DNA from: Alicyclobacillus hesperidum
GTDB taxonomy: Bacteria > Bacillota > Bacilli > Alicyclobacillales > Alicyclobacillaceae
DNA: 64,000 nucleotides
Direction of reading: 5' to 3'
Assembly: GCF_900107035.1 (NCBI RefSeq)
Contig: NZ_FNOJ01000002.1
Coordinates: 62,001 to 126,000 of the forward strand
The translations under genes were made by a program, and so were the position numbers. The number at the start of each line of letters is the position of its first letter. Within the stretch, counting starts at the first letter, position 1. The notes under the pieces are model-generated. The model worked only from the letters and a program-made list of their open reading frames with translations, ran no database searches and had not been told where the DNA came from. Shown here one piece after another: positions 23,518-42,166 of this stretch.

Positions 23518-24534
23518 CTACGGCAAGATAACGTCGCGGCCACCGCTTTGCGTCGCCAACGCCAAGGGCACGTCCTCGAGGGCGAGTCTGCGTCCGAGTA
23601 GGGCCGGCGGGTCGATCCGCCCGTCTGCCGCCAGCTTGACGACCTCTACGACGTCGCTGCGTTGCGAACCGTAACTGCCGATACAGCGCACGCCGCGCCG
23701 CACCAGTCGCGCCATGGGTACCGCCACATCGCCTGCCGGCATTCCTACGATCACGACGGTGCCACCCGGGCGCAACGCGTCTAGGGCAAAGCCAAGCGAT
23801 TGTCCATCCCCAACCGTATCGAGCACGAGATCGACCCCACCTGCACCGGCGAAGCGACGAATCGCCCGCGCAGCACCTCGAGCATCGGTTAACGCGACGG
23901 CAACCTCAGCTCCTGCTGACTGCGCCACATCGAGTCCGGCCGCGCGGCGGCTTGCACTCGCCACGCGAGCGACCGCGCCAGCCTTAAGCAACTGAATGGC
24001 CGCCAGGCCCAATCCCCCGGTGCCGATGACCAAGGCCGTCGCCGCCTTGTCCGCGTGCGCGGCAACGAGCGCTCGCTGCGGCGTCGCATAAGCGTCGACC
24101 AGAATGGCTGCTGCCGCCGGATCGAGATGGGCGGGACGGCGAACGAGTTGGTCGGCGGGTACAGCGACATATTCAGCAAATCCACCCTGTCGCGTGAACC
24201 CGATACAGCCCTGTTGTGAGCAGAGATGCGATTCGCCCCGACGACATACCGCACAAGTCCCACACGGACAAAACGGGTGCACGAGTACCGCATCCCCAAC
24301 GTCCCACCCGTCCACGGCATCGCCCACTGCCACAATGGTACCTGCAATTTCATGCCCTAACACAAGGGGAAACTGCGTGCCAAAGGGCGGCGTCTCACCG
24401 CGGACAATCTGCCGATCGCTCCCACACACGCCACAGGCGTCTACCTGCAACAACACTTCGTTTGCGGCCGCCTCCGGCACAGGCAAATCCACGAGATCCG
24501 TGCCGCGATCCGGCGCGTATTGCAACGCCCGCAT
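23518..24534 (-). CDS. Zinc-binding medium-chain dehydrogenase
   Basis: A 338-residue MDR-family oxidoreductase. It has the catalytic-zinc Cys in DACGVCGSD, GHEIAGTIVAVG, the structural-zinc cysteines in HPFCPCGTCAVCRRGESHLC, and the nucleotide loop GTGGLGLAAIQLLKAG. Such enzymes interconvert secondary alcohols and ketones with NAD(P)H. It is the last clear member of the leftward run with acyl-CoA dehydrogenase and ligase, starting two bases after the dehydrogenase stop (TAAGATG), so a hydroxyl-ketone step on the same ring substrate is plausible. Substrate not determinable. Confidence 0.85.
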   Translation of the reverse strand: MRALQYAPDRGTDLVDLPVPEAAANEVLLQVDACGVCGSDRQIVRGETPPFGTQFPLVLGHEIAGTIVAVGDAVDGWDVGDAVLVHPFCPCGTCAVCRRGESHLCSQQGCIGFTRQGGFAEYVAVPADQLVRRPAHLDPAAAAILVDAYATPQRALVAAHADKAATALVIGTGGLGLAAIQLLKAGAVARVASASRRAAGLDVAQSAGAEVAVALTDARGAARAIRRFAGAGGVDLVLDTVGDGQSLGFALDALRPGGTVVIVGMPAGDVAVPMARLVRRGVRCIGSYGSQRSDVVEVVKLAADGRIDPPALLGRRLALEDVPLALATQSGGRDVILP

Positions 24535-24535
24535 C

Positions 24536-25762
24536 TTATTCCGCCCGCTTTGCTTCGCGCTCGCGACGGCGTGCATTGGTCAAAAGCGCTTCGGCAATCG
24601 TCATCTTCTGCATTTCGATGGTACCTTCCTCAAACCAGAGCGAACGCGCGTCGCGATACAGCCGTTCTACCGGGCTGGTCACCGCGTAGCCAATCCCACC
24701 AAACAGGCTGAGCGCGCCGTCCGTGACATCGCCGACCATGCGAATCGCATTTGCCTTGGCAATCGAGGCTTCCAGCGCGATGTCCTGGCCGAGATCGTAC
24801 TTATAAGCGACGTCAAGGCACAACAGGCGCGCCGCCTGGATGGCAATCTGCATTTCTGCCAGGCGCATCTGCACGGCCTGACGGCTTGCCAGGGCCTTGC
24901 CGAACGTCGTGCGCTGGCGCACGAACTCGAGCGTCCTATCCAGCGATTCTTGGGCAAGGCCGACCGCACTTTGCGCAATGCAACCTCGGCTCTGATCCAG
25001 AAACCCGCGCACAGCCACGCCAAATCCTTCGCCGATCTCGCCGAGGATTTCATCCTCGCTGACCTCGCAGTTGTCAAACTCGATGATGGCATGTGAACAT
25101 CCTTTGTCGCCCATCATGTGCGGCATCGGGATCAATTTCATCCCTTTACGACCTTGCGGCACGAGGAATGCAGTCAACCCGCCGCGGCCTGCACCGCCTT
25201 CCATCTTCGCGATTACGGCAAGAACGGCGGCTTCCTCCGCAAACGTGATCAGGTGTTTGCGGCCGTTGAGAACGTACTTGCCATTCTCATAGGTCGCTGT
25301 CGTACGCAGATCGATCCCGGTGCCATTGTCCGGCTCTGTCAACGCGAAGGCGACGAGTGCGCCTTCGTCGACCAACTTTTTCAGCCAGTACTCCTGCTGT
25401 TCGCGCGTACCTTGTCCGACGGTGCGCCAGATGCTGTTGTACGCATGAAACACCATGCGGATGGAACCATGACAATGAGCTATTTCTTCGAGAATCGGAA
25501 AATACAGGCCGAGCGGCAAACCTTCACCGCCGACCCAGGTGGGCTGTGTCAACTTGTGAAAGCCCAGTTCGCGCATCCGCGCCCACAGCTCGGTAGGTAT
25601 CTTTTCGTCGCGTTCGATCTGCGCGCCCCACTCCGCCGCCTCCTCTTGGCGGAACTGGATGACGCGATTGCGAATTTCGTTCGCCCGCTGCACAAGTGCT
25701 TCGTCATACTGCGGCAACTGCGGGCAAATCGCGTCGCGCATGGACGGGTTGAGAATGTTCAT
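24536..25762 (-). CDS. Acyl-CoA dehydrogenase family protein (first copy)
   Basis: A 408-residue flavoprotein of the acyl-CoA dehydrogenase fold. FAD and substrate motifs are clear: FALTEPDNGTGIDLRTTATYENGKYVLNGRKHLITF, then RQRTTFGKALASRQAVQ, LFGGIGYA, and WFEEGTIEMQKM, where the Glu of EGT occupies the catalytic-base position. It may remove or, in reverse, add hydrogens on an acyl thioester. The ligase stop codon (TAG) lies inside its ribosome site, TAGGAGG. A second copy in the same cluster (32518-33681) faces the other way. Confidence 0.9.
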   Translation of the reverse strand: MNILNPSMRDAICPQLPQYDEALVQRANEIRNRVIQFRQEEAAEWGAQIERDEKIPTELWARMRELGFHKLTQPTWVGGEGLPLGLYFPILEEIAHCHGSIRMVFHAYNSIWRTVGQGTREQQEYWLKKLVDEGALVAFALTEPDNGTGIDLRTTATYENGKYVLNGRKHLITFAEEAAVLAVIAKMEGGAGRGGLTAFLVPQGRKGMKLIPMPHMMGDKGCSHAIIEFDNCEVSEDEILGEIGEGFGVAVRGFLDQSRGCIAQSAVGLAQESLDRTLEFVRQRTTFGKALASRQAVQMRLAEMQIAIQAARLLCLDVAYKYDLGQDIALEASIAKANAIRMVGDVTDGALSLFGGIGYAVTSPVERLYRDARSLWFEEGTIEMQKMTIAEALLTNARRREREAKRAE

Positions 25763-25773
25763 GACAAATCCTC

Positions 25774-27432
25774 CTAGCGGCCGTTTGCCTGACCTTCCGC
25801 TTCAAGGCGGAAGCGTTCACGCAAATCTTTCTTTTTGATTTTTCCGGAATGCGTCTGCGGGAACTCCTTCATCAGTTCGAGGCGATCTGGGAACTGGAAT
25901 TTTGCCAACCCCTGTTCCGCCAGAAATTCCCGTAGTTCTTTTAGGGATAACGCCTCGTGCCCTTCGCGCAAAATCACACAGGCAACCGTGTGCTGCCCCA
26001 AGGTTGCATCTGGCGCCCCGACCACGGCGACATTTTCCACCGACGGATGCTTGGAAATGGCATCTTCGACGGTCTTCGGATCGATTTTCGTACCGCCTCG
26101 GTTAATAATGTCGTCAGCGCGGGCGATAAACACATAACGCCCATTTTCATCCTGTCGCAAGACGTCCCCTGAATGGAACCAGCCGTCGGCGTCCCATTGC
26201 TTGTGCGCCGCCGTCGGGTTTTGGTAATAGCCCGCACTAAAGTTCGGCCCACGCGACCACATCTCACCCGGTTCACCCGGTTTGACGTCGTGGCCATCCT
26301 CGTCGACGAGACGAACCTCTGTACCTGGAATGGCGAAGCCGACGGTCGACGACAAAGCCTCAAGCGGATCGTCAGGGCGCGTGGCAGTTGCCAAGAAGCC
26401 TTCTGACCAGCCAAACATACAACCGACCTTGATGCCACTATCGGCCTGTAATTGCGAAAGCACGGCACTTGGTACAGGCGCCCCTGCGTAGATGAACAGC
26501 TTGACACTTGCTGTATCCGTCGTTTTTAGGTTCGGTGCGTTTGCGACGTGAATCACATGCGGTGGCGCACCCACTAAATAAGTCGGGCGATATTCCTCTA
26601 TCCACTTCAGGACGCGTGCCGCGGAGAACCGCTCGAGCAACATGATTCGGCCACCCTTGGCGACAGTCATCATGACGCCCGCAAGCATGCCGGTCTGGTG
26701 ACAAATGGGTGCCAGACAGAGCACCCCTTCCCCGGGATCGTAGCCGAAATTCTTTGCGTAGGCACGCGCCGCCCAAAGGTAGTTGGCGTGATAGTGGACG
26801 ACGCCCTTTGGCGAACCGGTTGTGCCAGATGTAAACACCATAAGAAAAGCATCGAGAGCACCCGGGCGGTTTGCAGCAAGATCTGTTTCGTCCAGATGTT
26901 TCCCAGAATCGCGCAGGCTGGCAAACGTTAGTGCGCCTTCCGGTGCCCGCTCTGGATCTCCTTGGAGGACAATTTCCTTGAGATCAGGCAACTCGGCCTT
27001 GAGGGAAACCGCCATGTCGTACAGAGGCTGGCCACGGAAGTAATCCGCAATGATCCACACCTTGGCGCGCGAAGTTTTAAGGCTCGTCATCAACGCTTGA
27101 CGACCAAGGTCAATTTGCAGTGACACACCAATAGCACCAATGCGTGCGGCAGCGAATACCCCCACTACGTAATCGAGGGCGTTGGGCAATTGCAAGGCCA
27201 CCGTATCGCCCTTGCGAACTCCCATCTCGTACAAGCTTGCGGCGACGGCCTCGATCTCGTTCCAAAGCTGTGCATAGCTCGCTTCGCGTTCCTCGTCGCG
27301 ATGGACAAAGTTCGGATACTGTTGAACATCGTTATAGAACACGTCGACAAACGACTCTTCCGTCCAAAAGCCCTTGTCGATATACAACTGAGCTCGTTCA
27401 CGCGTCAAGGTCCTACCTTCAAAATCAAACAT
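25774..27432 (-). CDS. Acyl-adenylate-forming CoA/ACP ligase (ANL family, first copy)
   Basis: A 552-residue ANL enzyme that should activate a carboxylic acid as acyl-AMP and then load CoA or a carrier protein. Visible motifs are the P-loop FTSGTTGSPKGVVH, GWSEGF (A5 region), GWFHSGD (A7), RADDIINRGGTKIDP (A8) and the C-terminal lysine in HSGKIKKKD (A10). The overall look is that of cyclohexanecarboxyl-CoA or 2,3-dihydroxybenzoyl ligases rather than long-chain fatty acyl ligases. It is followed directly by an acyl-CoA dehydrogenase, and a weak terminator separates it from the ACP gene upstream. Confidence 0.88.
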   Translation of the reverse strand: MFDFEGRTLTRERAQLYIDKGFWTEESFVDVFYNDVQQYPNFVHRDEEREASYAQLWNEIEAVAASLYEMGVRKGDTVALQLPNALDYVVGVFAAARIGAIGVSLQIDLGRQALMTSLKTSRAKVWIIADYFRGQPLYDMAVSLKAELPDLKEIVLQGDPERAPEGALTFASLRDSGKHLDETDLAANRPGALDAFLMVFTSGTTGSPKGVVHYHANYLWAARAYAKNFGYDPGEGVLCLAPICHQTGMLAGVMMTVAKGGRIMLLERFSAARVLKWIEEYRPTYLVGAPPHVIHVANAPNLKTTDTASVKLFIYAGAPVPSAVLSQLQADSGIKVGCMFGWSEGFLATATRPDDPLEALSSTVGFAIPGTEVRLVDEDGHDVKPGEPGEMWSRGPNFSAGYYQNPTAAHKQWDADGWFHSGDVLRQDENGRYVFIARADDIINRGGTKIDPKTVEDAISKHPSVENVAVVGAPDATLGQHTVACVILREGHEALSLKELREFLAEQGLAKFQFPDRLELMKEFPQTHSGKIKKKDLRERFRLEAEGQANGR

Positions 27433-27525
27433 CCGACTACCCCCTCATTCGCATAGTTGTTGAAGTACAACAGATTTGCATGTCGAGACGCGCTGTCGTT
27501 TTGTGCGATCCGCCCTAGCAGGGGA

Positions 27526-27550
27526 AAAGGGCAGCCATTGGCCGCCCTTT
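27526..27550 (-). terminator. Terminator or attenuator after the ACP gene
   Basis: Read leftward, AGGGCGGCC and GGCTGCCCT pair around a short loop and are followed by TTTTCCCC. It lies seven bases after the acp stop and before the ligase, so it could reduce readthrough into the ligase operon. Confidence 0.6.
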
Positions 27551-27557
27551 ATCTGTG

Positions 27558-27815
27558 TCAGTGTGCTAAGCGCCCGCTGATGTATTGAACGACGCCTTCA
27601 ACGGTAGAAAGTTGGCCAAAATCGGCCTCTGGAATTTCGATGTCGAACTCGTCCTCAAACGCGACCGCAAGTTCAGTCAAATCGAGCGAATCGGCACCCA
27701 GGTCATCGACAAACAAGCTGTCCGGCTTGACCTCTGCCGCGTCGACCTGAAGCTGATTGACAACCACTTTGCGCACACGTTCTTCGATCTGTTGCTTATT
27801 CAATGCCTCTGCCAT
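27558..27815 (-). CDS. Acyl carrier protein
   Basis: An 85-residue acidic four-helix carrier. The phosphopantetheine attachment motif is DDLGADSLDLTEL with Ser at residue 43, followed by the recognition helix EDEFDIEIPE. It differs from the usual housekeeping sequence around the DSL motif (LDLTELAVAF rather than LDTVELVMAL) and is not beside fabD or fabG, so it is probably a second, pathway-specific ACP. Neighbours are an adenylate ligase and a FabL-like reductase, both possible partners. Confidence 0.93.
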   Translation of the reverse strand: MAEALNKQQIEERVRKVVVNQLQVDAAEVKPDSLFVDDLGADSLDLTELAVAFEDEFDIEIPEADFGQLSTVEGVVQYISGRLAH

Positions 27816-27888
27816 CTGTCTTCTCCTTTGCTGTTTGCTTTAGGTTGCTTCTATGAACCCAAGGTTTTGGCTACAGCCCTCTACAATC

Positions 27889-28677
27889 TTAAAAACTCTC
27901 AAAACCGCCTGTCAGAAGCGTCAAGCCGCCGTCGACGCGAATCACTTGCCCGGTGATGAAGCGAGACAGGTCACTCGCCAGAAAGACCGCGGTGTCTGCG
28001 ACATCTTCTGGAGTCGCCAAACGACCAAGCGGCGTATGCGCAATGACGTCCTGCCGATACGCATCATAGTTGTCCCCGCCATAAAAACGCGCCGATTCGG
28101 TGTCGACGACACCAGGATTAATGCTGTTGACCGTGATCCCCTTGTCGCCCACTTCCGACGCGAGATATCGCGTCATCGCTTCGAGGGCCGCCTTCGCGGA
28201 CCCCAGCGTCGCGTAGCGCGGCAAGGTGTATGTGCTTCCCATGCTCGACATCGTGATGATGCGCCCGCCGCCCCGTTTCTCCATCAACGGCACACAGCGC
28301 TGAGCAGCGAATACGAAACTGTGGATGATCACCCGATACGTCCTATCAATGTGATAGTCCTTTAGGCTATCAATGGGCTTAAACGCACTGGCTGCCGCAT
28401 TCGCGACGAAGATATCGAGGCCTCCGAAGACGCGCTCGATCTCGTCGAACGCAGCGTTCAATTCTTCCTGACTCTCCATCTCTGCCTTGACGACCAAGGC
28501 CTGACGCCCCAGTTCGCGGACCGCGGCTGCCGTCGCCTCAGCCTGCTCCGGCTCACGCCGATAGTGGATGACCACATCTGCGCCCTCGCGCGCCATCGCG
28601 ATCGCAACAGCCCGTCCAATGCCGCGACTGCTACCGGTCACAAACGCCTTTTTCCCTGCCAACAACACGTATGTCAT
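27889..28677 (-). CDS. SDR enoyl-thioester reductase, FabL/ChcA-like (first copy)
   Basis: A 262-residue short-chain dehydrogenase with TGSSRGIG at residues 14-21 and the active-site pattern Tyr-x6-Lys (YATLGSAK), which is that of FabI/FabL-type enoyl reductases rather than the Tyr-x3-Lys of ketoreductases. The tail FITGQVIRVDGG is also FabL-like. The SDR ChcA, a cyclohexenylcarbonyl-CoA reductase from Streptomyces, is a functional precedent for reducing ring enoyl thioesters. The start could instead be GTG at 28668, better spaced from AAGGAGG. Lies between the ACP and OYE-type reductase genes. Confidence 0.83.
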   Translation of the reverse strand: MTYVLLAGKKAFVTGSSRGIGRAVAIAMAREGADVVIHYRREPEQAEATAAAVRELGRQALVVKAEMESQEELNAAFDEIERVFGGLDIFVANAAASAFKPIDSLKDYHIDRTYRVIIHSFVFAAQRCVPLMEKRGGGRIITMSSMGSTYTLPRYATLGSAKAALEAMTRYLASEVGDKGITVNSINPGVVDTESARFYGGDNYDAYRQDVIAHTPLGRLATPEDVADTAVFLASDLSRFITGQVIRVDGGLTLLTGGFESF

Positions 28678-28719
28678 GCCTCCTTGCGACAAACAGAACG
28701 CCGCTTTCCACAAGCGCTT

Positions 28720-30729
28720 CTACTCGATTCCATACGCCGCCGCAAACGCCTCGCGAATCGCCCGCGCCGCATTGATACCGCGGCTCTCGCGCGCACCACC
28801 GACGACGTGCACGCGCGCCTTCTTCGCCACGTCGTCTAGCCAATCGACACTGGCCGACTCTTGCCCCGTGCAGAGCACGACCTGATCCGCCGGGATGACC
28901 TTATTCTCACCAGCGTGATCGATCACGACGCTGTCCTGGCGAATCTCACACACGGACGCGCTCGTCAACACATCGACGCCAAGGCGCTGCATCTCCTGCT
29001 TGACGACCCAGCGCGTGCTCCGCCCAATTCCGTGTCCATAGCGCTCACTGCGCGCCAGTACCGTGATATGGCGAGCGAGTGAGGCAGGCTCCGCCAGCCT
29101 TTGCGCCCGGAAGAACGACGTCGCCTCAGGCGTCGCATGCCGATGCTCGGCGAGATACGTCGCGACATCGCAGCCGATGCCCCCCGCCCCGATAATCACG
29201 ATGTCGCGCCCCACTTGCACTTGTCCAGTCAAAATCTGCGCGTACGTCACCACGTGCGGCAAGTCTTCGCCGGGGAGGCTTGGCCGTCTCGGCTCGACAC
29301 CAACCGCGACAATCACATCGTCATACGAAGACAACTCGTCCAGCGTAGGCTCTGTTTGCATTGTAACAGTCACGGCAAACCGTTCAAGCATCTCTTCATA
29401 ATAACGGATGGTCTCGTAAAACTCCGCTTTTCCTGGAATCCGGCCCGCCATCCGAAATTGGCCGCCCAATTCGCGATCGCGCTCGTACAACGTCACCGCA
29501 TGGCCGCGCATCGCAGCCGCCACTGCCGCTGCCAATCCGGCCGGACCGCCGCCGACCACGGCGACGCGGCGACGCGCGCCCGCCTTGACGAGCGGCCATT
29601 CCGACTCCTGTCCCGCGCGCGGATTGACCAGGCAACTCACTGGTTGATACGGCTTGACGAGCGTGTGATCCAAGCACGATTGGTTGCAAGCGATACAGAC
29701 GTTGAGCCCTTGCCGATCCCCTATGAGGATCTTGCGCGCAAATTCTGCATCCGCCAACCAAGGGCGTGCGGGCGCGATGAAATCGAGATAGCCGTCGGCC
29801 ACCAATTGATCCGCCACTTCCGGCACGTTGAGCCGATTGGCGCCAAGCACCGGCACCGACACATGCTGGCGAATGCGCCCAGCAACCGCCGCAAATCCTC
29901 CGCGCGGAACCACTTGCTGCACCGTCGGTACGCGCGACTCGTGCCAGCCAATGCCGATGTTTAACGCATCGACCCCGGCTTCCACCAAGGCCTGCGCAAA
30001 CCGAATGGTCTCCTCCTCCGTCGTGCTATCCGGCATCAAATCTGCACCTGACATCCGAAAGATAATGGGATATTCGGCCCCGACCGCGGCGCGAACGGCG
30101 CGCACAACGTCCAGCGGCATGCGCATCCGCCGGTCGAAATCGCCCCCATACTCGTCGTCGCGCACATTGGTAAGGGGCGACAAGAACTGGTTGAGGAGAT
30201 AACCTTCCGATCCCATAATTTCAATGGCGTCAAAGCCGATCCGCTTCGCCGTGCTCGCCGCGTTGGCAAAGCCCAAAATCGTGCGCGCAATATCTTCCGC
30301 CGTCATCGCACGCGGCGTCTCTCTCGTCAAACGCGACGGGATTGCGCTAGGAGCCACAGGTTGCATGCCAATCTCTTCAGAAAACGCATAGCGACCAGCG
30401 TGAAACAATTGTAAGGCAATGCGACCTCCGACCGCATGAACGGCCTCCGGCAACTTGGCGAGCATGTCGATGTGCTCCGGATTCGTGAGCACGTACATCT
30501 CGCCACCACCCTCCGGCAACACCACGGCACCGCCAGTGATGATAAGTGCCGCCATACCTTCTGCGCGATCGCGATAAAATGTGCAAAGCCGCTCGATATA
30601 TTCTGGATTGCGCTCCAGACCCATGTGCATAGAACCCATCAGGATACGATGAGGCAGCGTGAGCGAGCCAATCTGACCGGGCTGACGCAAGGCCTGAAAC
30701 TGGCGCAGTACGTTCTGCGGTGCCACCAT
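28720..30729 (-). CDS. 2,4-dienoyl-CoA reductase-like OYE flavoenzyme (FadH type)
   Basis: A 669-residue multi-domain oxidoreductase. The N-terminal TIM barrel of the Old Yellow Enzyme family (LTLPHRILMGSMHMGLE.., HAGRYA) is followed by a 4Fe-4S cluster site (CIACNQSCLD..SCLVNP) and FAD/NAD(P) Rossmann domains (VAVVGGGPAGLAAAVAA and IVIIGAGGIGCDVATYL). FadH-type enzymes reduce conjugated dienoyl thioesters, a reaction needed if a cyclohexadiene acid is to be saturated. ATG at 30729 is preferred, with GAAGAGG five bases upstream. First gene of the leftward operon from the divergent promoter region. Confidence 0.9.
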   Translation of the reverse strand: MVAPQNVLRQFQALRQPGQIGSLTLPHRILMGSMHMGLERNPEYIERLCTFYRDRAEGMAALIITGGAVVLPEGGGEMYVLTNPEHIDMLAKLPEAVHAVGGRIALQLFHAGRYAFSEEIGMQPVAPSAIPSRLTRETPRAMTAEDIARTILGFANAASTAKRIGFDAIEIMGSEGYLLNQFLSPLTNVRDDEYGGDFDRRMRMPLDVVRAVRAAVGAEYPIIFRMSGADLMPDSTTEEETIRFAQALVEAGVDALNIGIGWHESRVPTVQQVVPRGGFAAVAGRIRQHVSVPVLGANRLNVPEVADQLVADGYLDFIAPARPWLADAEFARKILIGDRQGLNVCIACNQSCLDHTLVKPYQPVSCLVNPRAGQESEWPLVKAGARRRVAVVGGGPAGLAAAVAAAMRGHAVTLYERDRELGGQFRMAGRIPGKAEFYETIRYYEEMLERFAVTVTMQTEPTLDELSSYDDVIVAVGVEPRRPSLPGEDLPHVVTYAQILTGQVQVGRDIVIIGAGGIGCDVATYLAEHRHATPEATSFFRAQRLAEPASLARHITVLARSERYGHGIGRSTRWVVKQEMQRLGVDVLTSASVCEIRQDSVVIDHAGENKVIPADQVVLCTGQESASVDWLDDVAKKARVHVVGGARESRGINAARAIREAFAAAYGIE

Positions 30730-30813
30730 CAACACCTCTTCAACTATGGCTTGCGGCGCAACAACCTGTTACCTGTGCATATTCCCAAGCCATTTTTATA
30801 ATCTGATATTAAC

Positions 30814-30864
30814 ACCTGGTATTGAATTCGTCGACAAGCGTGCTAGAATGTTTTATAACCAGGT
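30814..30864. promoter_or_regulatory. Pair of ACCTGGT/ACCAGGT operator-like sites
   Basis: ACCTGGT (30814-30820) and its inverted copy ACCAGGT (30858-30864) lie 44 bases apart centre to centre in the divergent promoter region. The right-hand site ATAACCAGGTAT is itself a near palindrome and sits just after the rightward -10. A similar element, ATGACCAAGTCAT, follows the -10-like TAGAAT ahead of the ketosynthase gene at 40838-40850. Confidence 0.55.
30822..30849 (+). promoter_or_regulatory. Promoter for the rightward ligase-dehydrogenase-DAHPS operon
   Basis: TTGAAT (30822-30827) and TAGAAT (30844-30849) are spaced by 16 bases, 47 bases before the GTG start of the ligase. The operator-like ACCAGGT lies where transcription would begin. 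Confidence 0.65.
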
Positions 30865-30896
30865 ATGAATTTCGGAATGAAAGGAGCGGCGCCACT

Positions 30897-32495
30897 GTGA
30901 GCGCTCCGCTGTTTCTCGACAAATTTGACATGTTCCGGGCGCAGAGCCCGAATCAATTGGCTGTTATCGATCTCGCTGGCTCATCTCCTATTCAATTGAC
31001 GTATGCCCAATTGGACGAACTCTCTACCCGCGCGGCCATCGGCCTGCTACAGCGCGGTGTGCAACCGGGCGATGCAGTCGCCTATCAGTTGCCAAGCGGT
31101 TGGCCGTTTATTGTCATCACCCTTGGCCTTTGGAAACTTGGTGCCATTCCCTGCCCGCTCTTGCCTTCCTTGCGCGAACGAGAAGTGACGTTCATCATGC
31201 AGTCTTCCGGCAGCCGCCTCCTCATTGTCCCGGACGAATTTCGACGGTTTGCCTATGCGCAGCTTGTGGATAGAATCCGGCCAGAACTGCCCGCGCTGGA
31301 ACACGTGATTGTCATTGCCCAGCAACAGTACGATCCGGCCGCACACGATCTCGGCGGCATCCTGTGGCAAGGCGAGATTTCCGAAGACATGTTGACGGAA
31401 GTGACACGACGGCGCGCGACGGCGACATCCTACTCACAACTGCTTTACACGTCCGGGACGACAGGTGAACCCAAAGGCGTTTTGCACACGCACCAAAGCC
31501 TGTCAAACGCATTGCTCGCGCATACGACGACATTGGGACTGAGCGCGAGCGACCGCATTTGGGTGCCATCGCCGCTTGCTCACCAGACAGGATTTCTCTA
31601 TGGAATGCTCGTTTCCTTCTATATCGGGGGCACGGGCATCTATCAGGCGGTTTGGGACGTCGACACGGCCCGTGCGGCCATCGAAGTGCATGGCGCGACC
31701 TTCGTGCAGGCTGCAATGCCGTTCTTGTCCGATATTACGCGCAGCGCGCAACCGCCAAAGGGTCTGCGCCTGTTTATTGCAACCGGCGCGGCGATTCCTC
31801 GGCAATTGGCGCAAGAAGCCCGCGAAAAGTTGGCTTGCTCCATCGTCGGCGCTTGGGGATCAACGGAAGCCTGTCTCGTCACCGTCGGCCGCCCGGACGA
31901 TCCGCCGGAAAAACTATGGGGTACCGATGGCCGCGCCATCGACGGCATGGAGATCCGCGTCGTCGACGACGAGGGCCATGTTCTCCCAGCAGGGCGAGAA
32001 GGTAACTATCAAATCAAGACGCCGGCGATGTTCGCCACCTACTTGCACCACCATGAGTGGTACGAAGCCGGCTTTACAAAAGACGGATTTTTTGACACTG
32101 GCGATCTCGCCGTGATCGACGAAGATGGTTATTTGAAAATTACCGGACGCAAAAAGGACGTCGTCAATCGCGGTGGTGAGAAGATCCCGGTTGTGGAAAT
32201 CGAGGACTTGCTTTACCAGCATCCTGCCATCGCGGATGCAGCGGTCGTGGCCATGCCGGACGAACGGCTGGGTGAACGTGCGTGTGCATACGTCGTACTG
32301 CAACCTGGCCAAGCGGGTATTGACCTGTCGCAAATCACAGACTTTCTCGGCGAGCGCGGGATGGCCAAGATTTATTGGCCGGAACGAGTCGAGGTCATCG
32401 ACGAAATGCCTCGCACGGCAAGCGGCAAGATCCAAAAATATGTGTTGCGCAATGACATCGCAAACAAGTTGCAGCAGGAACGCACGCGAGCCTAA
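30897..32495 (+). CDS. Acyl-adenylate-forming CoA/ACP ligase (ANL family, second copy)
   Basis: A 532-residue ANL enzyme. Motifs in order: LYTSGTTGEPKGVLHTHQS, GAWGSTE, GFFDTGD, GRKKDVVNRGGEKI and the A10 lysine in TASGKIQKY. It resembles aryl- and alicyclic-acid ligases such as 2,3-dihydroxybenzoate-AMP ligase. GTG at 30897 is chosen because GAAAGGAG lies upstream; earlier in-frame codons overlap the promoter. Having two ligases in one cluster suggests two acids, or one CoA- and one ACP-loading enzyme. First gene of an operon ending with DAHP synthase. Confidence 0.88.
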   Translation: MSAPLFLDKFDMFRAQSPNQLAVIDLAGSSPIQLTYAQLDELSTRAAIGLLQRGVQPGDAVAYQLPSGWPFIVITLGLWKLGAIPCPLLPSLREREVTFIMQSSGSRLLIVPDEFRRFAYAQLVDRIRPELPALEHVIVIAQQQYDPAAHDLGGILWQGEISEDMLTEVTRRRATATSYSQLLYTSGTTGEPKGVLHTHQSLSNALLAHTTTLGLSASDRIWVPSPLAHQTGFLYGMLVSFYIGGTGIYQAVWDVDTARAAIEVHGATFVQAAMPFLSDITRSAQPPKGLRLFIATGAAIPRQLAQEAREKLACSIVGAWGSTEACLVTVGRPDDPPEKLWGTDGRAIDGMEIRVVDDEGHVLPAGREGNYQIKTPAMFATYLHHHEWYEAGFTKDGFFDTGDLAVIDEDGYLKITGRKKDVVNRGGEKIPVVEIEDLLYQHPAIADAAVVAMPDERLGERACAYVVLQPGQAGIDLSQITDFLGERGMAKIYWPERVEVIDEMPRTASGKIQKYVLRNDIANKLQQERTRA

Positions 32496-32517
32496 AGCAA
32501 AGGAAGGGCGACGAACC

Positions 32518-33681
32518 ATGCAGACGCGAACATTGGCCGATTGGATGGCGGACGTCGACGCTTATGTCGCAGGCCCTGCTGCCATGTGGGCGCAAGAGAT
32601 CGAAGCGACGGGCACCGTGCCACAGGCGGTATGGGAAGAGTTGAACGATCGCGGCTACTTACGTCTTACAGCCCCGCGCGATCTCGGTGGCTACGGCCTC
32701 TCCTTTACAGACTATCTGCAGCTACTCGAGAGATTCGCCGCCATGCACGGCTCGATGCGCGTCATCGTGCATGTCACGAATAGCCTGTGGCGGTCGCTCG
32801 CCAGCAAGGCGTCAGCGGAGCAGTTGGAGCGGTTTGTCAAGCCGTTTATCGGCGGTCAACTGCGGGCGACGTTTACGTTGACGGAGCCCAATTCGGGATC
32901 TGGAGCAGACATCAAGACCACCGCCCGCCGCGAAGGCTGTGAATACATCGTCAACGGCGAGAAGTGGATGATCATCTTCAGCGATGTTGCGGATTACTTT
33001 CTCTTGTTCTGCCGACTCGAGGGAACAAGTGGCGGTGAAGGCACGCTGGCACTCATGGTGCCCAAAGATACAGCCGGACTCGAGATAGAATGGATGGCTC
33101 CGGCCATGGGCATCACCGGTACCCAGCACGGCCACTTGCGCCTCGTCAATTGTCGTGTGCCCGTCTCCAATCGGCTAGGTGAAGAAGGCGATGGTCTGGA
33201 AGTGGCGTTTCGCGGTTTTCTGGATCCGTCGCGCACCGCAATCGGCATGACGTGCGTCGGCGCGGCCAAGCGCAGCCTCGAGTTGGCGGCGGAACACGCG
33301 CTCGCGCGCGTGACCTTTGGGCAGCCACTCGCCAAGCGTCAGATCATCCAGATGTGGCTTGCGGAAATGGCGACGGACATCGAGGCAGCGCGCCACCTTG
33401 TCCTCCATGCTGCCCGCAAGTTCGATGCAGGTCAGCCGATCACGGTGGAAGCGAGTATGGCCAAGATGTTTGCCACGGAGATGCTGCAGCGGGTCACCGA
33501 TAAAGCCCTGCAAATCCATGGTGGGCCGGGCTATTTTAAGTCGAGCGAGATCGAACGCTTGTACCGCGATGCGCGGATGCAGCGGTTTGAAGAAGGAACG
33601 TCGGAAATTCAGAAGATGGTGATTGCGCGCGACGTGCTGGACAAGGCGAAGGCGGCGCGTGAAAGGAGAAATCGCGGATGA
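32518..33681 (+). CDS. Acyl-CoA dehydrogenase family protein (second copy)
   Basis: A 387-residue flavoprotein with FTLTEPNSGSGADIKTTARREG, ARVTFGQPLAKRQIIQ, IHGGPGYF and QRFEEGTSEIQKM, keeping the catalytic-region Glu in EGT. It parallels the copy at 24536-25762 and, like it, directly follows a ligase, which suggests duplication of a ligase-dehydrogenase pair. The ribosome site AGGAAGGGCG precedes the ATG. Its stop overlaps the DAHP synthase start (GATGA), coupling the two. Confidence 0.9.
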   Translation: MQTRTLADWMADVDAYVAGPAAMWAQEIEATGTVPQAVWEELNDRGYLRLTAPRDLGGYGLSFTDYLQLLERFAAMHGSMRVIVHVTNSLWRSLASKASAEQLERFVKPFIGGQLRATFTLTEPNSGSGADIKTTARREGCEYIVNGEKWMIIFSDVADYFLLFCRLEGTSGGEGTLALMVPKDTAGLEIEWMAPAMGITGTQHGHLRLVNCRVPVSNRLGEEGDGLEVAFRGFLDPSRTAIGMTCVGAAKRSLELAAEHALARVTFGQPLAKRQIIQMWLAEMATDIEAARHLVLHAARKFDAGQPITVEASMAKMFATEMLQRVTDKALQIHGGPGYFKSSEIERLYRDARMQRFEEGTSEIQKMVIARDVLDKAKAARERRNRG

Positions 33682-34691
33682 TTGTCATGCTGAACCCGAA
33701 GCACAATCAGCAACTGTTGGCACAATCCTTGGCCGAACTCGGCGTGACCGCCTACCCTGCGGGTGCCAATCGGGTCATGATTGCTGGTAACGACGCCGAT
33801 TTGGCGAATCGCCTGGCCCAACTGCCCGAGGTGCTGGAAGTCGTCCCCGTCGCACGTCCTTACCCACTCGCCAGCCGCGAGTTCCAGCAGGAAGACACCG
33901 TCATTCAGGTACGCGACGTCCTCATTGGCGGATCGAAGCCGGTCGTAATGGCTGGTCCATGCTCTGTCGAATCGGTGGAGAATATCGTTGACATCGCGAA
34001 GGCGGTCAAGCGCCTGGGTGGCCACGTGTTGCGTGGCGGCGCCTTTAAGCCGCGTTCGAGCCCGTATTCGTTCCAGGGTCACGGCGAAGAGGGACTCAAG
34101 ATGATGGCCATGGCGCGCGAGATCACTGGGCTCGCCATCGTCTCGGAAGTGATGGAGCCGGATAAAGTTGCGCTCGTAGCGGAGTATGTCGACATTCTCC
34201 AGATTGGTGCGCGCAACATGCAGAACTACCCCTTGTTGCGCGAAGCGGGCAAGTCGATGAAGCCTGTGCTTCTCAAGCGCGGCCTGTCGGGGACGATTGA
34301 GGAATGGCTGATGGCTGCCGAATACATCTTGGCGCAAGGCAACCCCAACGTCATTTTGTGCGAACGAGGTATCCGCACGTTTGAAACGGCGACGCGCAAT
34401 ACACTCGACCTCAATGCCGTGCCGGTGGTCAAAAGCCTTACCCATTTGCCGGTTATTGTCGATCCGTCGCATGGCGTCGGCAAGCGTGCGTTCGTCCGCC
34501 CAATGGCGCGCGCAGGTGTGGCGGCTGGGGCAGACGGCGTGATCGTCGAAATTCACCCGACACCGGATCAAGCGATGTCCGACGCGGCGCAGACGATCGA
34601 TTATCAGGAATTCGGACTGATGGTAGAAGAGATTCACCGGATCTCCGATGTGTTACATGGCACCCGTGAAAAAACGGTTGTCGGCGTTTGA
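33678..34691 (+). CDS. aroF: 3-deoxy-7-phosphoheptulonate (DAHP) synthase, type I-beta
   Basis: Condenses phosphoenolpyruvate and erythrose 4-phosphate, the entry step of the shikimate pathway. The 337-residue protein has an N-terminal ferredoxin-like (ACT-like) regulatory segment (residues 1-70) and a KDO8PS/DAHPS barrel with [53 protein letters not shown] and [12 protein letters not shown]. No chorismate mutase domain is fused. The ATG overlaps the stop of the acyl-CoA dehydrogenase gene, so shikimate supply is produced together with ring-acid enzymes rather than with other aro genes. Confidence 0.93.
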
Positions 34692-38738: not shown

Positions 38739-39500
38739 CTAACGCTTAAACGACAAAGCCCCGTCGTCAACGCAGTAGGCATGCCCATTGAGGAAAGACG
38801 CTTCGTCGCTCGCGAGAAACGCCACGACCTGCGCAACCTGCTCCGGCGTGCCCAGCTTGCGGCGCATGTGCGCCTTTTGAATCGTGTTCCACACGCGCTC
38901 ATCCGCCCGCCAAGCATCGACCAGCCCTGTATCGATCATCCCTGGTGCAATAGCCACCACCCGGATATTGTAGCGTGCGAGTTCCAAGGCGGCCGCCTTC
39001 GTCATGCCGACGACCGCCGCCTTGCTCGCGTGATACGGGAACTGGTTTCTATCTGCAATGAAGGCATAAATCGAGGCTGTGTTGATGATGACGCCGCCGC
39101 GCTCGCGCATCTGTGCCGCCGCCGCTCGAATGCCGTAGTAGACGCCGTGCTGATTAATGGCAATCGTCCGATGGTATGTCTCCATCGGCATGTCGATCAC
39201 GTTTTGCAATCCGTCACCAAACACACCAGCATTGTTAAACATGATATCGAGTTGGCCATAAGTATCCATGGCAAACTGTACGAGCGCTTCGACGCTCTCG
39301 TAAGCGGTCACGTCCACACGGCAAAACGACGCTTCACCGCCCTTTGCACAGATTTCGGCCGTCACCTTGGCCCCGGCCGCCTCGTCAATGTCGGCGACGA
39401 CGACCTTGGCCCCTTGCTCGGCCAACAATCGGGCACTCGCGCCGCCAATACCTCCTGCTCCGCCTGTCACAATGGCGACGCGCCCGTCGAATCGATTCAC
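38739..39500 (-). CDS. Classical SDR oxidoreductase
   Basis: A 253-residue short-chain dehydrogenase: TGGAGGIG at residues 12-19, NNAG in the middle, and the classical Ser..Tyr-x3-Lys (INTAS then PYHASK). Asp-Ile-Asp after the second strand suggests NAD rather than NADP preference. It would oxidise or reduce a hydroxyl on a ring or acyl substrate. GTG at 39500 overlaps the thioesterase stop as GTGA, so it is the third gene of a leftward operon with a FabL-like SDR and a thioesterase. Confidence 0.87.
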   Translation of the reverse strand: MNRFDGRVAIVTGGAGGIGGASARLLAEQGAKVVVADIDEAAGAKVTAEICAKGGEASFCRVDVTAYESVEALVQFAMDTYGQLDIMFNNAGVFGDGLQNVIDMPMETYHRTIAINQHGVYYGIRAAAAQMRERGGVIINTASIYAFIADRNQFPYHASKAAVVGMTKAAALELARYNIRVVAIAPGMIDTGLVDAWRADERVWNTIQKAHMRRKLGTPEQVAQVVAFLASDEASFLNGHAYCVDDGALSFKR

Positions 39501-39904
39501 ACCGCATCCCCCTGTTCGTAACTCATCAAAGCCGTCCGCCAGTGCTCCGGTACCGGACATGGAGTTCCGGCCTCATCGACGTGGACATAGATGGATTGCG
39601 CTTCAAAAATCAGTTCTTCCTGCCTCGTGATCGCAAAATCGAGGACGATGCTTGTATTGCCGATGCGATTGGTCCGCACCCAAATCGATAAATCGTCCTC
39701 AAACCGCGCCGACTTATGATACTGCAAGGTCGACTTGGCGAGCACGGTTGTGGGAATCTCGCCATATAGCTTGAGTTCATGGCGGAAGAATTGTTGAAAC
39801 GCGAGATCGAGATACATCAAATAATTTGCGTTATACACGATTAACTGGCCATCCACCTCAGGCCAGCGTACGCGGATGTCGTAGTGAAATCGAAAACCCT
39901 CCAA
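39497..39904 (-). CDS. Acyl-CoA thioesterase, 4HBT/YbgC-type hotdog fold
   Basis: A 135-residue single hotdog domain. VRWPEVDGQLIVYNANYLMYLDLAF carries the catalytic Asp in the position of the 4-hydroxybenzoyl-CoA thioesterase and YbgC families. It should release a free acid from a CoA or ACP thioester, and in this setting could free or edit ring-acid intermediates. It sits between two SDR genes with an overlapping stop-start downstream. Confidence 0.87.
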   Translation of the reverse strand: MEGFRFHYDIRVRWPEVDGQLIVYNANYLMYLDLAFQQFFRHELKLYGEIPTTVLAKSTLQYHKSARFEDDLSIWVRTNRIGNTSIVLDFAITRQEELIFEAQSIYVHVDEAGTPCPVPEHWRTALMSYEQGDAV

Positions 39905-39941: not shown

Positions 39942-40715
39942 TCACGGTATCGGCAAGGTAATACCGCCGTCGATGCGAATGGTCTGGCCGCGAATCATCT
40001 CAGCTTCCGGCGAACAAAGGAACAAGGCCAGGTTTGCGATGTCGTCCGGCGTCACCATGCGATGATACGGCATCTTCTCTTCCACCGCCGCCAACGTCTT
40101 GTCCATCTCCGGAAAATGACCAAGCGCATCGGTCAGCACTGCACCCGCCGAGATGGCATTGACATTGATCCGGCGCGGCGCCAGTTCGATCGCAAAATAA
40201 CGGACAATGGATTCAAGAGCCGCTTTGCTCGATCCCACGGACACATAATACGGAAATACGCGATCCGCCCCAAACGAAGACAAGGCCAACATGGCACCGC
40301 CTGTCTCCGGCATCAGATTCGCGGCCTGCTGGGCGCCAATGAGAAATGCCCGCGTGTTGACCTGCATCGTCCAATCCCAGCCCTTGGTGTCGACCTCCAT
40401 CGCAGAGCGATTGCGACCCGACGCCGCATTATGGACGAAGACGTCGATCCGCCCAAAAGCCTCGCGAATTTGTTCGAACATGGCGACGACCTTTTCCTCC
40501 TGCGCCATGTTGGCGCGAACCAACAAGGCCTTGCGCCCTAATGCCTCAATCTCCGCCGCAACCTCGCGCGCTTGATCCCCGTTTCGGAAATAATTGATGA
40601 CGACGTCCGCGCCCTCCTCGGCAAAGCGCACAGCAAGCCTGCGGCCAATGCCGCGCGAACTTCCCGTGACGCAGACGACTCGATTCTGATAGCGATTGCC
40701 TGACGCTTGTCCCAT
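39942..40715 (-). CDS. SDR enoyl-thioester reductase, FabL/ChcA-like (second copy)
   Basis: A 257-residue SDR with TGSSRGIG near residue 17 and the enoyl-reductase pattern Tyr-x6-Lys (YVSVGSSK). The C-terminal MIRGQTIRIDGG and the ALGHFPEMD loop strongly resemble Bacillus FabL. It probably reduces enoyl-thioesters with NADPH. Two such enzymes in one cluster would suit the several ring double-bond reductions needed to go from a shikimate-derived diene to a cyclohexane acid. Divergent from the ketosynthase gene; an extended -10 (TGCTATGAT on the minus strand, about 40757-40765) is visible. Confidence 0.85.
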   Translation of the reverse strand: MGQASGNRYQNRVVCVTGSSRGIGRRLAVRFAEEGADVVINYFRNGDQAREVAAEIEALGRKALLVRANMAQEEKVVAMFEQIREAFGRIDVFVHNAASGRNRSAMEVDTKGWDWTMQVNTRAFLIGAQQAANLMPETGGAMLALSSFGADRVFPYYVSVGSSKAALESIVRYFAIELAPRRINVNAISAGAVLTDALGHFPEMDKTLAAVEEKMPYHRMVTPDDIANLALFLCSPEAEMIRGQTIRIDGGITLPIP

Positions 40716-40906: not shown

Positions 40907-42166
40907 ATGGCGGAAAAGACGCGCATCGTCGTCACCGGAATGGGTGCCGTTACGCCATTCGGGGTCGGGGTAACCACGTTCTGGGATGGCATTGTAGGGG
41001 GCAAATCGGCTGTGCGGCAAACCGAAGACGAGTATCTTCGCAGCTGGGCCCCGGTCGTCGCCGCGGCGCACGATTTTGATCCAACACTGTACCTTGACAA
41101 GAAGCAAATTCAAAATAGTGATCGATTCACGCAGATGGGGCTTGTCGCCGCCATGGAAGCCATTCGCGACGCAGGACTTGGCGAGAGCGGCGACTTCGCA
41201 GCGTACGCCATGGATCGCATTGGAATTTCTGTTGGCTGTGCATTCGGTGGCGTCCAGACGCTGGAAGACGGCTCGGCGCGTTTGTCATCCGGAAGATCGT
41301 CGCGCGTCGGACCGCGCCTGGTGCCAAAATCGATACCGAATGCGGCGGCAGCCGGCATCGCCATGCGCTATGGCATCCGCGGCCCGGTGATGACCTATTC
41401 GACCGCCTGTGCATCGTCCGCCAACGCGATTGGCGAGGCAAGCTATTGGCTGCGCTTAGGCGAGGTCGATATGGTGCTTGCCGGGGGTGCGGAGTGCTTA
41501 TTCAGTCCGGCCATTCTGGCAGGTCTGCGGGCAGCTGGTGCGCTCGCGACGGAAGGGCCTGCGTCGTTCTCCGCCTGGTCGCGGCCATTCGATAAAGCAC
41601 GTACAGGCATGGTCATGGGCGAGGGTGCGGCGATGCTCGTGCTCGAGACACTCGAGAGCGCACAGGCCCGGGGTGCCCATATCTATGCGGAGCTGACCGG
41701 CTATGGTTCGTCCAACGACGCCTACCATGAAACCTCGCCGGATCCGGCTGGCCGCGGCGCAAAGTTAGCCATGGAGCGCGCGCTCAAAAGCGCGGGGCTC
41801 AATCCCACTGACATCGATTATGTCAACGCCCACGCCACAGCGACGCCTGCCGGCGATCTCGCCGAATCGACCGCGTTGCGTGAGACGTTCGGTGATCACA
41901 TCGACGCCATCCCGGTGAGTTCTATCAAAGGGGCGGTCGGACACATGTTGGGAACGGCTGGCGCCATCGAAAGCATCGCCTGCATTAAAGCGCTGGAGAC
42001 CGGCATGCTCCCGCCGACTCTAAACTGTGACGACAAGGAGAAGTTTGCTCCTCGCGACGTGGTGGCCAACAAGAGCCGCGCGGCCGACATTGCGACAGCA
42101 CTGAGCTCGTCTTTTGGCTTTGGCGGCCAAAACGGTGTGCTCATTTGGCAGAAAACATCGTTCTAA
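40907..42166 (+). CDS. Beta-ketoacyl-ACP synthase II-type enzyme (FabF-like)
   Basis: A 419-residue thiolase-fold condensing enzyme with the KAS I/II triad: Cys168 in STACASSA, His309 in NAHATATPAGD and His346 in GAVGHMLGTAG. The Ala and Thr in NAHATATPAGD differ from the housekeeping NAHGTSTPLGD. It would elongate an ACP- or CoA-primed chain with malonyl-ACP. It is not among other fab genes but beside ring-acid genes, so it may be dedicated to extending a cyclic starter. GAGAGGAG precedes the ATG. Confidence 0.9.
   Translation: MAEKTRIVVTGMGAVTPFGVGVTTFWDGIVGGKSAVRQTEDEYLRSWAPVVAAAHDFDPTLYLDKKQIQNSDRFTQMGLVAAMEAIRDAGLGESGDFAAYAMDRIGISVGCAFGGVQTLEDGSARLSSGRSSRVGPRLVPKSIPNAAAAGIAMRYGIRGPVMTYSTACASSANAIGEASYWLRLGEVDMVLAGGAECLFSPAILAGLRAAGALATEGPASFSAWSRPFDKARTGMVMGEGAAMLVLETLESAQARGAHIYAELTGYGSSNDAYHETSPDPAGRGAKLAMERALKSAGLNPTDIDYVNAHATATPAGDLAESTALRETFGDHIDAIPVSSIKGAVGHMLGTAGAIESIACIKALETGMLPPTLNCDDKEKFAPRDVVANKSRAADIATALSSSFGFGGQNGVLIWQKTSF

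Follow-up and report, generated by a model that had tools for sequence, protein, structure and literature searches.

The placement of a cyclohexane ring on the membrane fatty acids of Alicyclobacillus has so far been described via CoA esters, and cell extracts use cyclohexanecarboxyl-CoA as a primer. FabH is normally viewed as the gatekeeper of the chain starters. MbtM-MbtL-MbtN and RedM-RedO-RedW are known as triads of a ligase, a carrier and a dehydrogenase. For lactomycin and phoslactomycin, consecutive rows of the gene table in PMC5852498 give the plmJK ligase, the plmL CoA dehydrogenase, the cyclohexenylcarbonyl-CoA reductase ChcA and the plmM NADH:FMN oxidoreductase. Six genes are counted in that source for the cyclohexanecarboxyl-CoA starter, and the table as printed consists of lmP1-lmP5, with no separate acyl carrier protein (ACP). 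Cyclohexyl fatty acids are known from Curtobacterium pusillum, as stated in PMC3426160, and a start of the fatty acid chain that is independent of FabH, by the malonyl-ACP decarboxylase YiiD, is described in the available text of PMC8666670. No gene-level account of ACP, ligase or FabH in the synthesis of Alicyclobacillus ring fatty acids was found in the open-licence PMC literature.

The window examined in this study is the whole stretch of 64,000 nucleotides of Alicyclobacillus hesperidum DNA. It contains a locus which, judged by gene content and order, appears to be composed of two adjoining modules: a ring cassette (module R) and an ACP with its own ligase (module P). Module R (27889-33681) matches plmJK-plmL-chcA-plmM of the printed table in combining these four kinds of gene in one cluster, a comparison made by gene kinds and not by identity. 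It differs from the plm cassette in that the genes of the window are on two strands, an EPSP-synthase-like gene (which plmJ presumably is) is not adjacent, and module P lies next door.

Gene content of the locus and its extra carrier

Module R was defined as a ChcA-like short-chain reductase with a Tyr-x6-Lys motif (27889-28677, minus strand), a flavoenzyme resembling OYE and 2,4-dienoyl reductases (28720-30735, minus), an AMP-forming ligase (30822-32495, plus; the ring ligase) and the second acyl-CoA-dehydrogenase-like flavoenzyme of the locus (32521-33681, plus), identified by model matches and synteny. By synteny, its neighbours are a DAHP synthase, the first enzyme of the shikimate pathway (33678-34691, plus; PF00793, 272.2 bits) and, in Alicyclobacillaceae, a short-chain dehydrogenase with a Tyr-x3-Lys motif (38739-39560, minus) and a 4HBT thioesterase-like protein (39497-39904, minus; PF13279, 43.3 bits). 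Module P was named after the usual company of the ACP-ligase pair in other loci. It comprises the ACP (27558-27815, minus; 85 aa, GADSLDL), an AMP-forming ligase (25774-27432, minus; the paired ligase, a proposed acid:ACP ligase) and, as usual members recognised by model matches and synteny, an acyl-CoA-dehydrogenase-like flavoenzyme (24536-25762, minus) and a zinc alcohol dehydrogenase (23518-24576, minus). A FabL enoyl-ACP reductase, which belongs to module P in other species, is at 39942-40715 (minus). The preliminary description had placed the ACP between reductases and an adenylate ligase, with a ketosynthase in a second block; the sequence confirmed this gene order, and the ketosynthase is a divergent KAS II (40907-42166, plus), identified by a KAS II model and synteny.

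The ACP satisfied the general definition of an acyl carrier, with a DSL serine (Ser43), 92.7 bits with NCBIfam acyl_carrier TIGR00517 (cut-off 70.45) and 55.9 bits with Pfam PP-binding (cut-off 20.8). Exactly two carriers were found in the genome by a PF00550 search, which rules out this ACP as the sole one. The other carrier lies between FabG and FabF, and so occupies the fab-operon place by which a housekeeping AcpP is recognised and which the ACP at 27558-27815 does not have. The earlier view of this protein as an extra, non-housekeeping carrier was therefore correct, and the check proposed with it, for a separate acpP beside the fab genes, came out positive. Every one of the 15 genus genomes encodes the extra ACP (79-100% identity), and this retention is not attributable to chance. 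In a tree, one branch (support 100/98) split 38 P-type ACPs from 14 housekeeping ACPs, the rows having been pre-sorted by motif (DSLDxTEL or DSLDxVEL) ahead of the branch test. A strong terminator-like hairpin with a short U run was observed on the minus strand immediately past the ACP stop codon (27526-27550; fold of 27495-27557, z-score -3.19), and with a hairpin in this position the ACP message may exceed the ligase message. The hairpin was absent from the list produced by a simple terminator scan, and the promoter and terminator scans performed near chance level.

The reductase that adjoins the ACP starts at an ATG preceded by AGGAGG; its outer coordinate, 28677, is also the one at which the preliminary description ended. 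The tyrosine of its Tyr-x6-Lys is Tyr155 when counted from that ATG. Its best solved relative is an enoyl-ACP reductase, 3oic, which we take to be FabL of B. subtilis. With NCBIfam FabL it scored 255.7 bits, below the cut-off of 328, which was exceeded by the reductase at 39942-40715 (376.8 bits). The preliminary description of a FabL-like reductase beside the ACP is thus accurate in the adjacency, the motif and the closest structure, but the name FabL proper does not apply. A further candidate role, that of FabL 39942-40715 as the only enoyl reductase, was rejected: all 15 genus genomes encode a FabI-like enzyme elsewhere, although with a score below the cut-off of the model, which was also missed by all 14 control genomes.

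The ACP-ligase pair and its co-occurrence with the ring cassette

Approximately 85,000 genomes were scanned with an alignment of the paired ligase, which gave 260 relatives; the best 80 of these correspond to 77 loci and are the basis of the locus counts that follow. Identity among the 77 loci showed a gap, with 31 at 52-99% (two copies from A. mengziensis included) and 46 at 38% or less. Among these best 80 of 260, an ACP relative was found directly upstream of the ligase, on the same strand and at a distance of approximately 12-215 nt, in every one of the 31 named loci with at least 52% identity, and in none of the 46 at 38% or less (profile score >15). The closest named relative in this set was from A. 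tengchongensis CGMCC1504 (99% identity). The same strictness was seen in 41 genomes of the family, a sample which overlaps in species with the 31 loci: the extra ACP was present, beside the ligase, in 29 of 29 genomes with the ligase and in 0 of 12 without it. The pair occurs in Alicyclobacillaceae, Sporolactobacillaceae, Cohnella, and MAGs labelled Chloroflexota and Actinomycetota. The exceptions are ligase paralogues with 48-52% identity in two genomes (G040 and G026), which have no adjacent ACP and adjoin KAS II or FabL genes; both genomes also carry the usual pair.

The other members of module P were sought in flanks of up to 10 kb around these 31 named pairs, which derive from the best 80 of 260 relatives. 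Relatives of the dehydrogenase-like flavoenzyme 24536-25762 were present in 24 loci and of the alcohol dehydrogenase in 22, FabL was found in 17, and KAS II in 11, for example in Cohnella, Pullulanibacillus and A. tolerans. The flank in A. contaminans contained the ACP and ligase only, and that in Cohnella the ACP, ligase and KAS II. The order of the genes is altered in Scopulibacillus and A. mengziensis (L073, L074, L079), where the ACP stays with the ligase and does not have the reductase as a neighbour.

That the paired ligase would load the ACP is well supported by this genome evidence. The earlier suggestion had been that one of the two ligases may do so; it holds, at gene level, for the adjacent ligase as the strict partner of the carrier (31/31 against 0/46 among the best 80 of 260, and 29/29 against 0/12), with the two paralogues lacking an ACP standing against it. 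The top solved relatives of both window ligases were salicylate- and dihydroxybenzoate-AMP ligases. Kinship with DhbE and EntE was set aside as evidence for carrier loading because it does not discriminate: the ring ligase, used as a control, gave the same kind of matches.

Two other arrangements of the pair were observed. A single ring cassette is flanked by two ACP-ligase pairs, over approximately 22 kb, in A. mengziensis (G019; L047, L048, L156). The pair is also present in metagenome bins labelled Chloroflexi, Actinobacteria and Rubrobacteraceae (L085, L086, L088), whose three ligases cluster together; either transfer or wrong binning would account for this.

Both modules were present in 23 of the 41 family genomes, module P only in 6, module R only in 1 and neither in 11. 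The association was significant by Fisher's test (4e-5, uncorrected for kinship). Two Scopulibacillus, Pullulanibacillus camelliae and Cohnella thermotolerans likewise carry both. The presence of the R cassette in these last three groups predicts cyclohexyl lipids there, and to our knowledge such lipids have not been reported from them.

The distribution was also compared with the phenotypes in Table 1 of PMC5023266. A. acidiphilus, A. fastidiosus, A. sacchari and A. sendaiensis are listed in that table with omega-cyclohexane acids, and their genomes have both modules. No omega-alicyclic acids are listed there for A. contaminans, A. macrosporangiidus and A. ferrooxydans, and the genomes matched to these names have module P and no R ligase above 42% identity. 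Two species are discordant. For A. tolerans the table gives omega-cyclohexane acids, but no R ligase above 39% identity was found in strain BL-1 (L082); for A. tengchongensis it gives omega-cycloheptane acids, but the record has both P and R. The analysed and the sequenced strains may differ in these two cases. The presence of the ACP does not follow that of ring lipids, as the three species listed without ring acids keep the ACP. The overall pattern, as far as gene presence can tell, fits a role for R as the ring maker and for P as something able to exist without R.

Since these ring-less species keep P, the acid used by P need not be a ring acid. The paired ligase might be an acid:ACP ligase for several short branched or alicyclic acids, made or imported, with the ring acid as one of them, and module P a general priming or salvage system. 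No R ligase was found in 6 of the 29 genomes with P, which is in agreement with such a breadth, as is the retention of P in the three species of the table. Counting against it is the presence of P in 23 of the 24 family genomes that have R, and in Scopulibacillus, P. camelliae and C. thermotolerans, where R is again accompanied by P. We regard a general priming or salvage role as unlikely.

Carrier-free loci of the ring cassette

The best model for the ring ligase was cyclohexanecarboxylate-CoA ligase TIGR03208, at 473.3 bits, below the cut-off of 792.3. In the ligase tree, 28 R ligases fell on one side of a branch with SH-aLRT 99, and the relatives of the four module R genes stay clustered across genomes. 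R stands apart from the ACP, as a separate and distant locus, in G033, G034, G036 and G040, in P. camelliae (L165) and in C. thermotolerans (L166). In the genus of Curtobacterium sp. MCJR17_055, a ligase with 46-55% identity to the ring ligase was present in 40 of 66 genomes (24 via partial alignment), and the four R genes were in a row in all 7 of the loci that were opened among these 40. The same four genes were also clustered in two Scopulibacillus loci, one Pullulanibacillus locus and one Cohnella locus. No carrier was detected by an ACP profile scan in 14 of 14 separate R loci, 7 of which are from Curtobacterium and one of which (L150) ends at a contig edge; the only match in the scan was in L167, a locus that includes module P. 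A ChcA-like short-chain reductase was present in 13 of the 14 ACP-less loci, the remaining one being that cut by the contig end.

Of 13 Bacillota R loci outside the genus, 9 have an EPSP-synthase-like gene adjoining the ligase (6 confirmed by PF00275), and an EPSP-synthase domain is fused to the ring ligase in 7 of 7 Curtobacterium loci (2 confirmed by PF00275). In these Curtobacterium loci (L174-L180, e.g. L179:7191-10499), the ring ligase lies behind the EPSP-synthase domain in one protein of approximately 1100 aa. The order of the R genes in Curtobacterium is that of the printed plm table, plus this fusion. An EPSP-synthase-like gene was absent from the window and from the 184 kb of its contig that were covered. 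Among plasmid records with a ring ligase match, all 11 had matches below 40% identity. A further ligase clade, approximately 40% identical to the ring ligase, adjoins KAS II and often FabL in A. macrosporangiidus and relatives (L061, L089, L094, L144, L145, L155).

R was taken to be a CoA-ester cassette because it has the same kinds of gene as the published plm cassette, in whose printed table an ACP is absent. We infer the chemistry of R from this look-alike. The preliminary description had suggested a different order of events: early loading of the ring acid onto the ACP, ring reductions while it is carrier-bound, and direct transfer of the product to the ketosynthase. The ACP does adjoin a FabL-like Tyr-x6-Lys reductase in the genus, and module P does have an acyl-CoA-dehydrogenase-like enzyme (24/31) and often a true FabL (17/31, both among the best 80 of 260). 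However, the ring cassette owns a ligase and is without an ACP in 14 of 14 loci, the look-alike is named for CoA esters in PMC5852498, and in the rearranged loci (L073, L074, L079) it is the ligase and not the reductase that the ACP keeps. Reduction of the ring on the carrier is decidedly unlikely in the light of these loci, and this part of the suggestion was not supported. A late or last reduction on the carrier, by the flavoenzyme 24536-25762 or by the true FabL 39942-40715, is possible.

FabH, chain initiation and comparison with described systems

The fabH model TIGR00747 was matched above its cut-off in 38 of the 41 family genomes and in 13 of the 15 genomes of the genus. By this model there was no FabH in G004 and G013 (the latter matched to A. 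suci), each 99% complete, or in G033, which is 85% complete. With the broader model ACP_syn_III, the best match in G004 and G013 had an E value of only 0.05. Both genomes carry the ring module. The operon in G006 and G018 is plsX-fabH-fabD-fabG-acpP-fabF; in G004 and G013, plsX is directly followed by fabD. Among the 13 genomes of the genus that have FabH, only 3 keep the gene within the fab operon; in the other 10, including the genome of the window, it is found elsewhere. Outside the genus, both genes could be placed in 22 genomes, and in these FabH adjoins the housekeeping ACP. FabH has therefore moved or vanished in the very genus that unites P and R in one locus, which is suggestive.

The KAS II at 40907-42166 scored 457.8 bits with fabF TIGR03150, below the cut-off of 493.75 (the housekeeping FabF scored 668.9), and passed the broader KAS II model NF005589 (443.9 against 387). 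Its active-site motif is TACAS. A ketosynthase at least 57% identical to it was found in 27 of 29 genomes with the ACP-ligase pair, and also in 7 of 12 without the pair, which makes its assignment to P the weakest step of the proposed route. A third ketosynthase, FabF by its model, is present in G004 and G013, both lacking FabH, and in G008, which keeps FabH (L186:9348-10595, L191:9084-10331, L193:9104-10348). This enzyme could be a chain starter in G004 and G013.

A CoA route to the chain is possible wherever FabH is present, as it is in 13 of the 15 genomes of the genus. An ordinary route of this kind, in which CoA esters are the product of both ligases, chain initiation falls to FabH and the extra ACP is no more than an added supply of carrier, would agree with the cyclohexanecarboxyl-CoA starter named for phoslactomycin synthase in PMC9730843 and with the cyclohexyl acids of C. 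pusillum (PMC3426160), in whose genus the R loci have no nearby ACP, but it is very improbable given the strict pairing of the ACP with one ligase across several families and the absence of FabH from G004 and G013.

The reading that we favour, with a confidence a little above even, is that R builds the ring acid as a CoA ester, that the paired ligase charges the ACP and that the divergent KAS II starts the chain. In this route, R would convert a shikimate-pathway compound to the cyclohexane ring acid as CoA esters, with a ligase of its own at 30822. The ring acid would then be freed by a thioesterase, for which the 4HBT protein at 39497 is a candidate, or otherwise. The paired ligase would adenylate the free acid and pass it to the phosphopantetheine of the ACP, so that its acceptor would be the ACP and not CoA, and the acid in question would be the ring acid. 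KAS II 40907-42166 would condense this acyl-ACP with malonyl-ACP, and chain initiation could do without FabH. If the ring acid is indeed loaded by a ligase onto its own ACP, this would constitute a further FabH-free way to start fatty acids, which the two near-complete genomes without FabH make directly testable, and the ACP-ligase pair could be used to put chosen starter acids into lipids. It is also possible, although we would sooner doubt it than assert it, that a self-contained FabH-free device, in which a dedicated acid:ACP ligase works with an ACP and a KAS II of its own, starts ring-tipped fatty acids, passes between families, and became the main or only starter in the A. suci lineage, letting fabH leave the operon and be lost.

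The paired ligase resembles DhbE, EntE and PchD in its two domains, in a nearly gap-free alignment and in having a discrete carrier gene as a neighbour, and differs in that it would feed fatty acid synthesis and not a peptide synthetase. The Asn and Ser of DhbE, presumably contacts of its hydroxylated substrate, align with Gln and a hydrophobic residue in the paired ligase. The three kinds of gene in the Mbt and Red triads are together in 24 of the 31 named ACP-ligase loci (best 80 of 260 relatives); the dehydrogenase of P (24536-25762) scored far below the cut-offs of these families, with 43.8 of 700 bits for MbtN and 160.9 of 650 for RedW. The proposed start would be FabH-free, like that by YiiD as described in the available text of PMC8666670, with the difference that a ligase would supply the starter by attaching a preformed acid to a dedicated ACP. 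The parts are of known kinds, and it is their combination that is new.
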